This document shows, piece by piece, positions 13,020 through 15,953 of a stretch of DNA of 41,478 bases. The stretch's first letter is position 1. Every line of letters begins with the position of its first letter. A program made the translations under genes and the position numbers. Source of the stretch: Bacteroidota bacterium (lineage in GTDB: Bacteria; Bacteroidota; Bacteroidia; J057; JAJTIE01); contig JAHBTG010000019.1 in the NCBI GenBank assembly GCA_019638695.1, positions 1-41,478 on the forward strand, written 5' to 3'. Below the pieces are notes generated by a model. That model did not search any database. It had not been told where the DNA came from and saw only the letters and a program-made list of their open reading frames with translations.

Positions 13020-13670
13020 TTACTCAGTGTAAATGACAGGATAGAGCACCCAGCTTACCCCGGCAAAGAGCAGGCCAGTGGCCGGGAGCGCCCACAGCTC
13101 CTGGCTGTGCGGCAACCCTGTCAGGATCTTGAGCGCCAGTTGCACCGAAAGCAATAGTACCGGGAGCACCACCGGGAAACTGATCACTGCCATAAGGGTA
13201 TTGCGGTGATTACCGGCGCTGGCTATGGCCGCATTGAGCGTAAGTGTGGCCGCAAAGCCAAAAGCAGAGAGCGGCACCACGTACCAGATACGGTGCAGCG
13301 TAAGAGATGTATCTTCCAGGGGAAGCAAGATAGCGGCCAATACCAGAATGACGCCCTGCAACAGCAGCAGCAATACAAAGTTATAGAGCAGGCGAGCTCC
13401 TAACTGTGCCTGCGGACCGGCCAGTTGATAGCGATACAAATGCAGGCCGGGCGGAGCGGAGAGAAAACCCTTACCAGCCGCCAGTATGGCAGTAAACAGC
13501 ATCATAAGCCATACCAGCACCACCCACAAACTAGTACCGGCGGGGCGGGGCAGGGCCAGTCCGGCGGCAAACACCATCACCCCGGCATAAAAGAAGAGGC
13601 CGTACAAAGCCGACCGCTGGCGAATCTCCAGCTGCCACTCCAGGCGAAGAAGCAGCCACAGGGTGCGTAT
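13020..13670 (-). CDS. ccmB: heme exporter CcmB (start codon unresolved)
   Basis: CcmB is the membrane subunit of the CcmABCD transporter used in cytochrome c maturation. The match is clear: GRxLYYYxLxxPQA corresponds to HLYRYQLAGPQAQLGARLLYN, seen in parts. The diagnostic stretch GNHRNTLMAVISFPVVLPVLL is likewise recognisable in parts, with about six membrane helices. Homology requires residues upstream of the first standard start (TTG 13607): the segment LLLRLEWQLEIRQRSALYG aligns with the usual KExxLEWRQKYALNG. That reading runs back to the in-frame stop of the upstream PBP gene (13701-13703) without ATG, GTG or TTG. The coordinates use ATA 13670 (MRTLWLLL, 216 residues). CTG 13688 is the other candidate. 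It follows the PBP gene directly and has no ccmA or ccmC beside it. Confidence 0.82.
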   Translation of the reverse strand: MRTLWLLLRLEWQLEIRQRSALYGLFFYAGVMVFAAGLALPRPAGTSLWVVLVWLMMLFTAILAAGKGFLSAPPGLHLYRYQLAGPQAQLGARLLYNFVLLLLLQGVILVLAAILLPLEDTSLTLHRIWYVVPLSAFGFAATLTLNAAIASAGNHRNTLMAVISFPVVLPVLLLSVQLALKILTGLPHSQELWALPATGLLFAGVSWVLYPVIYTE

Positions 13671-13700
13671 AGAGAGGGCTGGTCGCAGGGGAAAGAAGGG

Positions 13701-15953
13701 TTAATCCTCAAACTGGTTGCTGGGGCGTTCCGCATCATTGCGGTTGTAGTTGCCGGTTGTGCGTTCCGCCGTTTCCACGCAGCTGCTAGTCATGTTCTTG
13801 GGTGCAGGGAAACCGCGTTTTTCCAGTTTAAGCATAGGATCTGTATAAAGCCTGCGGAGGAATATAGCAATATTGGGCATGGCCATATACCCCCCCTGTC
13901 CATACACGCTGTACTCAGGATAGTGTATGGCCTGGTCGGCATTGCCCACCCAGGTGCCTATAGCCAGGTCCGGCGTGATGCACATGAACCAGGCATCGGT
14001 ATTCTTGTTGGTGGTACCGGTCTTGCCGGCCACTTCCACTTCCCAGGGCACCTTATACTCCGGGCGCAGGTTACCGGCCGTGCCCTGGTCCACCACCGCA
14101 CGCAGGGCTTGCACCATCAGGTAAGCGGTTTCTTCGCTCAGCGCTTCCGTGGTGTTGGGCACAAAGGTTTTGATGACATTGCCGAATTTGTCTTCGATAC
14201 GGGTAACAAATATGGGCTCATGCCACACCCCGCGCCCGGCAATCGTGGCATAGGCGCTGGTCAGCTCCAGGATATTCAGCTCAAATGAGCCCAGCGCCAG
14301 GGACGGCACCGCTTGTATCTCGGAGCGGATACCCATCTTCTGGGCATAACGTACCACCTCGTGGGGCGTCACCTTTTCCGTGATCAGGCGGGCTGTCACG
14401 GTATTGACCGAAAGGGCCAGCGCCCGGCGCAGGGGCATCTTGCCGGGGTACTTGCCATCCGCGTTCTTGGGGTCCCACACCTTGCCGGTGTGCGGGTCTG
14501 TCCATTCCAGGCGCTCCCCGCTCACCTGGGTGCAGGGGGTATATCCGTTATCAAAAGCGGCTGTGTATACGAACGGCTTGAAGGTAGAACCCACCTGGCG
14601 CTTGGTCTTGGCCACGTGGTCATACTTAAAGAACTCCTGGTCCAGGCCCCCTATCCACACCTTGATATGGCCGTTCTCGGGGTTAATGGCTACCATACCG
14701 CTTTCGAGGAACTGTTTGTAGTAGTAGATGCTGTCCAGCGGAGACATGGTGACCTCTATATACCCTTTGTCATTATAGGCATAGAGCTGCATGGGCACCT
14801 TCTCCCGAAAAGCAGCCTCTATCTGGGCTTTGGTATGGCCGGCCGTGAGCATGGTATTGTACCGGGCGCTCTGGCGCATGGCCCTGCGGATGATGGTCGT
14901 GTCCTTTTTCCAGATCTCGTAGCCCTTCATATTCTTGTTGAAGCGCTCCTGCTGCAAACGCATATTCTCCTGCATGGACTGCTCTGCCAGCACCTGCATG
15001 CGGGTGTCCAGCGTGGTATATACCCGCAGGCCGTCGGTATAGATATTGGGGCAGCGGCGCTTGCCGTTGTGGTTGATGGTGACCTCGCATTTATCGCACC
15101 AGTCCTGCAGCCACAGCCGCAGGTGTTCCCGGAAATAAGGCGCCACCCCCCGGTTATGGGCCAGGCGGCCATAGGTCCGCACTCCCAGCGGGAGTTGCTT
15201 GGCGCTGTCTGCCTGCGCCGGGGTGATAATACCCTGGTTCGCCATGAGTTCCAGCACGATATTGCGACGGTTGAGGGCTTTCTTGGGATTTTTGAGCGGA
15301 TTGTATACGCTGGGGCCCTTAAGCATGCCCACCAGCAAGGCTGCCTCATGCAGGCTGAGCTCTGCACAGTTTTTACCAAAGTAAACGTTGGCCGCACTCT
15401 GTATGCCGTAGAGCGTTCCGCCAAAAGGCACCGTATTCAGGTAATGGAGGATGATCTCGTCTTTGGTATAGCGCCGCTCCAGGTATACGGATACGATCAT
15501 CTCCTTGAGCTTGCGGGTGGCGTTGCGGGCCTTGCCCACCTGCTGCTCGTCATACAGGTTACGGGCCAGCTGCATGGTGAGGGTACTGCCCCCCTGTGCA
15601 TCCCCGGTGGCTATTTTACCAAAGGCGCGGAACAGGCCCCAGAGGTCTATACCGCTGTGATGGTAAAAGCGTTTGTCTTCTGTGGCAATAAGGGCATTCT
15701 TGACCACCGGGGGAATCTCGCTCATTTTGGCAAATACCCGGTTCTCATGCCGGTAGAAGGTACCGATAACCTTGCCGTCTGCGGAATAGACCATGGTAGC
15801 CAGGCTGGTATTGGGGTTTTCCAGCTCTTCCAGTCGGGGCATGCTGTCCAGCACCACGATCACGAAAATGATGAATGCCAGCATCAAAACGCCCACTGTG
15901 CTCAGCAGGATGATGCGGAACTTGCGAAAAGCGGGATGGAAGCGTATGGCCAT
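13701..15953 (-). CDS. class A penicillin-binding protein (PBP1A type)
   Basis: This bifunctional peptidoglycan polymerase and cross-linker is anchored by one N-terminal helix (about residues 13-36). The GT51 domain has catalytic Glu92 in ATEDKRFYHHSGID, GGSTLTMQLARNL (121-133) and a second Glu near 159 in VYLERRYTKDE. The transpeptidase domain has the active Ser456 in GSTFK, SVN at 515-517 and KTGTT starting at Lys644. At 750 residues it is full length. The frame is open to ATG 16001, but that lies upstream of the -7 box at 15991-15998. ATG 15953 leaves a leader of about 30 nt and gives a normal cytoplasmic tail (MAIRFHPAFRKFR). ccmB follows immediately. Confidence 0.95.
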   Translation of the reverse strand: MAIRFHPAFRKFRIILLSTVGVLMLAFIIFVIVVLDSMPRLEELENPNTSLATMVYSADGKVIGTFYRHENRVFAKMSEIPPVVKNALIATEDKRFYHHSGIDLWGLFRAFGKIATGDAQGGSTLTMQLARNLYDEQQVGKARNATRKLKEMIVSVYLERRYTKDEIILHYLNTVPFGGTLYGIQSAANVYFGKNCAELSLHEAALLVGMLKGPSVYNPLKNPKKALNRRNIVLELMANQGIITPAQADSAKQLPLGVRTYGRLAHNRGVAPYFREHLRLWLQDWCDKCEVTINHNGKRRCPNIYTDGLRVYTTLDTRMQVLAEQSMQENMRLQQERFNKNMKGYEIWKKDTTIIRRAMRQSARYNTMLTAGHTKAQIEAAFREKVPMQLYAYNDKGYIEVTMSPLDSIYYYKQFLESGMVAINPENGHIKVWIGGLDQEFFKYDHVAKTKRQVGSTFKPFVYTAAFDNGYTPCTQVSGERLEWTDPHTGKVWDPKNADGKYPGKMPLRRALALSVNTVTARLITEKVTPHEVVRYAQKMGIRSEIQAVPSLALGSFELNILELTSAYATIAGRGVWHEPIFVTRIEDKFGNVIKTFVPNTTEALSEETAYLMVQALRAVVDQGTAGNLRPEYKVPWEVEVAGKTGTTNKNTDAWFMCITPDLAIGTWVGNADQAIHYPEYSVYGQGGYMAMPNIAIFLRRLYTDPMLKLEKRGFPAPKNMTSSCVETAERTTGNYNRNDAERPSNQFED

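Follow-up and report, generated by a model that had tools for sequence, protein, structure and literature searches.

An otherwise intact ccmB gene in a Bacteroidota genome has probably lost its standard start codon through a point change, either real or in the assembled consensus, a reading to which we give a probability of about 0.6. The gene lies in the window (the whole stretch of DNA analysed here, 41,478 nucleotides), which is one whole contig of a genome assembly of 2.94 Mb in 146 contigs, its completeness rated at 95.9%. We infer the point change, its recency and the low expression that would follow from it; the missing start itself, the constraint on the segment ahead of TTG 13607, the standard starts of relatives and the isolation of the case in a sample of the genome are read from the sequence data.

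Results

The ccmB frame and its missing start

On the reverse strand of the window the ccmB frame follows the gene of a penicillin-binding protein (PBP) in the same phase, and the sequence directly after the PBP TAA (13703-13701) is PFFPLRPALSIRTLWLLLRLEWQLEIRQRSALYG... Reading this frame gives 31 codons between the PBP stop and TTG 13607 with not one ATG, GTG or TTG among them, which confirms the original prediction of such an absence. TTG 13607, where the listed open-reading frame begins (13020-13607, 195 aa), is the first of these codons, and past it the frame stays open until its stop codon at 13020. Near-cognate codons that lie in frame within the 31 codons include CTG 13688, ATA 13670 and CTG 13661, 13655, 13643 and 13631 (Table 1); the first two, residues 5 and 11 of the frame, would give products of 222 and 216 aa, and the lengths and coordinates given earlier for them are correct.

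Table 1 Features of the ccmB region of the window, and two other broken genes of the source genome
Feature	Position	Strand	Basis or remark
ccmB open frame, 226 codons past the PBP stop, then a stop codon	13020..13700	-	Sequence and homology
ccmB stretch of 31 codons without ATG, GTG or TTG	13608..13700	-	Sequence; coding by conservation
TTG, first standard start of the ccmB frame, within the conserved region	13605..13607	-	Sequence, conservation
ATA at residue 11, candidate for the lost start or for a near-cognate one; poor context	13668..13670	-	Sequence, context model
TCT codon, residue 10, aligns with the G001 ATG and the relatives' commonest start	13671..13673	-	Alignment
CTG at residue 5, near-cognate start candidate in an ordinary context, 12 nt beyond the PBP TAA	13686..13688	-	Sequence, context model
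Penicillin-binding protein gene (Transgly and Transpeptidase), stop TAA 13701-13703	13701..15953	-	ATG 15953 is the chosen start
M16 peptidase gene, in-frame TGA	L146:1556-1558, source-genome contig C65	-	Scan and Pfam domains
Hybrid histidine kinase gene, frameshift	L135 near 14410, source-genome contig C1 near 94410	+	Scan and domains

Conservation indicates that the stretch without a standard start is coding, beyond what chance would give. Against the CcmB of G001, the one same-family genome compared (the analysis covered 2 genomes of the family and 22 of the order), residues 12-31, all of them upstream of TTG 13607, are identical at 13 of 20 positions and residues 32-226 at 83 of 193. The first of these values shows the open stretch to be more than chance and, set against 1 of 6 at residues 6-11, places the beginning of constraint directly past ATA 13670; the family-conserved segment that had been claimed upstream of TTG 13607 is borne out by it. 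Identity with G001 by codon position (0.535/0.662/0.362 over 213 codons) has the pattern expected of a protein gene, and E25, which sits in the segment ahead of TTG 13607, is invariant in all 29 alignment rows. A frame error between 13668 and 13608 was ruled out, as R12-T13-L14 and the residues onward match G001 in the present frame. Of two contig-collection scans for close relatives, the one with the CcmB query gave none, and the one with the PBP query (80 loci kept of 150) gave a best match 36% identical.

Identity of the gene and other System I genes

Homology identifies the gene as ccmB. Searched singly, the window protein had no CcmB hit at E-values up to 1 in either Pfam or NCBIfam. Its alignment with 28 relatives, all accepted as CcmB homologues, runs from end to end, and PF03379 matches 28 of the resulting 29 rows, row 1 (the window protein) being the row without a family. 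The CcmB match in G001 has an E-value of 4.9e-46 and those in 48 further genomes range from 2e-29 to 1e-10. Used as a profile, the alignment retrieves solved structures of E. coli CcmB (7f02_B, E 1.2e-5), and since profile position 13 falls at residue 3 of the E. coli chain, that protein would start near query residue 11. A PF03379 search of the whole source genome at E 0.001 gave no match, and the G001 CcmB scores 20 bits against the same model, below its 24.9 cut-off.

On another contig of the source genome (C115) CcmE adjoins a PF01578 protein of CcmF size (1046-codon frame), and the genome has three cytochrome c domain matches. CcmC was not found in the source assembly with either the family model or the G001 CcmC protein as query, and a single match to the latter (E 0.09, 597-codon frame) was judged chance from its alignment. 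The source genome has CcmE and a CcmF-size protein yet no CcmC that we found, either through an assembly gap or through real loss; a single PF01578 match also occurs in 6 of the 22 genomes of the order. The ccmA model TIGR01189 is above cut-off in none of these 22 genomes, and CcmA is therefore not identifiable. As a separate observation, the source genome holds 78 matches to a T9SS sorting-tail model, one that also matches in 2 of 14 control genomes; such a number suggests membership of Bacteroidota.

Start codons in relatives

Among the 49 other genomes with a CcmB match, 36 ccmB loci were read; all 36 have a standard start and a non-standard one was seen in none. ATG, GTG or TTG stands at query residues 5-13 in 33 of the 36 loci, and at residues 8-11 in 28 of those 33, the start residues being extrapolated gap-free from the start of the BLAST alignment; at L159, where a gap shifts the number, the ATG is at the usual place by eye. 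The commonest position, G001 included, is residue 10, which is TCT 13673 here, one codon upstream of ATA, and L014 is the only locus read that starts at residue 11. Some starts lie further upstream: L004 has them at residues 5 and 6, several residues ahead of the commonest position, and in L162 and L163 (two genomes of one genus) a TTG is the first codon past the upstream stop, ~14 residues ahead of the usual start. L006 was left out of alignment A1 because its aligned region has an in-frame stop just before the TTG, and was kept in the start counts.

The original expectation of an ATG in relatives at the position of 13670 is thus upheld for standard starts nearby and, L014 apart, fails for the exact codon, while the case that would have told against a missing start, a relative truly starting at the position of TTG 13607 (residue 32), was needed for none of the 36 loci. 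With standard starts in every relative locus read, a conserved rare start codon is not supported.

Context of the candidate initiation codons

We scored initiation contexts from -20 to +15, start codon excluded, using four training sets (76 to 321 starts) with leave-one-out scoring for true starts. The context of ATA 13670 is in the lowest 1-2% (at or below a fraction of 0.009-0.023 of genuine starts), and the context model, which is weak, does not favour this codon. For CTG 13688, a fraction of 0.49-0.71 of true starts score no higher and 0.019-0.064 of random positions score as high; the values against genuine starts are 0.40-0.45 for TCT 13673, 0.38-0.42 for CTG 13661 and 0.068-0.101 for TTG 13607. 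As CTG 13661 and the non-start TCT 13673 are also ordinary, the model does not single out CTG 13688. The 30 nt upstream of ATA 13670 contain 2 A, where 63 genes average 7.4, and an A at -3 is absent from both ATA 13670 and CTG 13688; in F. johnsoniae, by the accessible part of that study, adenine at -3 aids initiation and Shine-Dalgarno motifs are absent (PMC6847099). No inverted repeat of at least 12 was found in 13550-13800, and the start region does not stand out in its folding (z -0.45 in the window, +0.56 in G001). Context and distance from the PBP stop make CTG 13688 a better near-cognate candidate than ATA 13670.

The upstream PBP gene

In G001 a PBP gene likewise precedes ccmB, and there the PBP TGA and the ccmB ATG share one base (TGATG, L180 6730-6745, - strand), which makes the cell-wall gene and the haem-export gene a textbook coupled pair. 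The two PBPs are 69% identical over the stretch compared, that of the window ending eight residues earlier in the alignment, and in the window the PBP stop lies in the ccmB frame, with CTG 13688 12 nt and ATA 13670 30 nt past it. The arrangement in G001 makes coupling of ccmB to the PBP gene plausible. In E. coli, according to the part of the source available, reinitiation tolerates very short distances only, with a small set of genes around +10 nt; a distance of ~20 nt almost abolishes coupling, and at +38 nt the loss is 80-90% in two gene pairs and complete in a third (PMC10666635).

Other lesions in the source genome

A codon-model scan of 506,102 bases of the source genome (36 stretches and the window, a 17% sample with 346 closed genes) ranked ccmB first of the 346 for coding signal ahead of the first NTG (score 5.23); in a first version of the scan it was third of 342, and the two places above it went to shadow ORFs lying antisense to longer frames. 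The missing start is isolated, both in this genome sample and among the relatives. Lineage-wide use of rare starts was considered and rejected, since in most of the sampled genes a standard start is present and hardly any coding signal precedes it. The runner-up of the scan is an M16 peptidase gene cut between its Peptidase_M16 and Peptidase_M16_C domains, and a frameshift scan gave a hybrid histidine kinase whose frame shifts between its HisKA and HATPase_c domains. These make at least two other broken genes, picked by eye from the best 30 of 89 and the best 20 of 53 candidates, and with them the assembly carries other base-level lesions.

In a control sample of G001 (400 kb, 288 closed genes) two entries outscore the ccmB of the window, L199 at 12.98 (84 codons) and L186 at 6.24, the latter by reading an ordinary gene with its ATG after a chance stretch. 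Because of these two entries the coding-signal measure alone is no proof, and homology carries the case. Among the top 10 + 10 listed in-frame stops read in the G001 stretches there was no confirmed lesion, a weak control as most were read without a homology check.

Discussion

A damaged start fits these observations better than a rare one, because the relatives' loci are standard throughout, the defect is isolated in the genome sample and two other genes of the assembly are broken. Of the two readings offered by the original prediction, damage is therefore the better fit; a rare start shared by the family finds no backing, and the coupling invoked for it is plausible from G001. A point change at or beside codons 10-11 (13668-13673) would have removed the standard start. 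The change would be genuine and recent in the strain sampled, or else an error introduced in the consensus. In the simplest history the lost start would be what is now ATA; this one-base history would also need a one-codon length change relative to G001, because the commonest start in relatives falls at TCT 13673, not at ATA. That displacement tells against a lost start, as does the poor context of ATA, which is odd for a codon that was a start until recently, and ATA 13670 is not clearly the site. A frame free of further damage would also suit a gene still in use, and the coding-signal measure, being exceeded twice in G001, is unspecific. If the change is real, CcmB may be made at a low level from a near-cognate CUG at 13688, close behind the terminating PBP ribosome, or from AUA at 13670, or not at all. 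Residual translation of this kind is possible because near-cognate starts are known in bacteria and, by the part of the report available, a natural ATG>ATA change in the start codon of E. coli rpoS lowers the protein (PMC12864459).

The chief alternative, improbable as a whole yet the strongest of its kind, is that ribosomes leaving the PBP gene start again at CTG 13688 and make small amounts of the 222-residue CcmB. The ordinary context, the one-base overlap in G001, the upstream starts of L004, L162 and L163 and the position 12 nt past the PBP stop, near the E. coli set around +10 nt, all agree with it, and excess CcmB is described as harmful in the accessible part of one source (PMC11868835); against it stand the lack of any non-standard start in the relatives read, the near absence of conservation at residues 6-11 and the equally ordinary contexts of CTG 13661 and TCT 13673. 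We find it distinctly less probable that ATA 13670 is a working AUA start for the 216-residue protein. Constraint with G001 does begin at residue 12, right after this codon, and S. aureus has functional AUA starts in infC, ccpN and citZ (PMC13009471, in part); the context, however, is among the poorest, the upstream 30 nt are short of A, the distance of 30 nt exceeds that at which coupling is almost abolished in E. coli, and the sequence read has no counterpart of the strong Shine-Dalgarno motif of S. aureus cvfC1, in a phylum that lacks such motifs (PMC6847099). Slightly more doubtful still is a more far-reaching proposal, that the lineage has swapped a coupled ccmB start for a CUG 12 nt behind the PBP stop and so keeps a haem translocase that is reported to be harmful in excess at a low level, tied to termination of a cell-wall gene, although the phylum does not initiate by Shine-Dalgarno motifs.

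Two further readings keep standard signals and change the protein. Translation from TTG 13607, the first standard start in frame, would yield a truncated 195-residue CcmB and is very unlikely: it would discard the most conserved N-terminal part, E25 included, from a codon of poor context, and in each of the relatives read a standard start is present further upstream. Least credible of all is read-through of the PBP stop into a PBP-CcmB fusion. The two frames are indeed in the same phase across TAA 13701-13703, but in G001 PBP and ccmB occupy different frames, the first closed by its own stop and the second opened by its own start, and the C terminus of a PBP should be periplasmic and the N terminus of CcmB cytoplasmic. 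A lost start, in the strain or in the consensus, remains our preferred reading.

If the cause is a base error or a recent mutation, gene callers would start CcmB at TTG 13607, 21-27 residues short, and the N-terminal segment that is conserved best would be missing from the shortened call. Should the codon be real and in use, the locus would offer a natural test of how near-cognate initiation works unaided by a Shine-Dalgarno motif, and of whether a start codon can keep a haem translocase scarce.

Among known systems, the protein resembles the CcmB of the CcmABCD haem-handling complex (PF03379, TIGR01190) in its end-to-end alignment with relatives and its structure-profile match; unlike known CcmB it matches neither model alone, and its gene follows a PBP gene. 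Termination-reinitiation occurs at short overlaps (PMC10666635, as far as the source was available), and G001 has such a 1-nt stop/start overlap whereas the window has none. The AUA and AUU starts of S. aureus (infC, ccpN, citZ and cvfC1) are described in the available portion of one paper (PMC13009471): there, as in the window, a full-length frame is present, with ATA near the expected start here, and the non-canonical sites reach ~10% of what the AUG reporter gives in poor medium and, for ccpN, up to 30% in rich medium. The non-canonical starts of cvfC1 and ccpN are conserved, however, and cvfC1 has a very strong extended Shine-Dalgarno motif (same source), whereas at the ccmB of the window neither conservation nor such a motif was seen. 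The closest parallel in kind may be the E. coli rpoS start mutation (PMC12864459, again from the accessible text), which shares with ccmB an isolated non-standard codon, an intact gene and standard relatives; for rpoS there is a known parent allele and a measured protein level, whereas the ccmB of the window is known from sequence alone.
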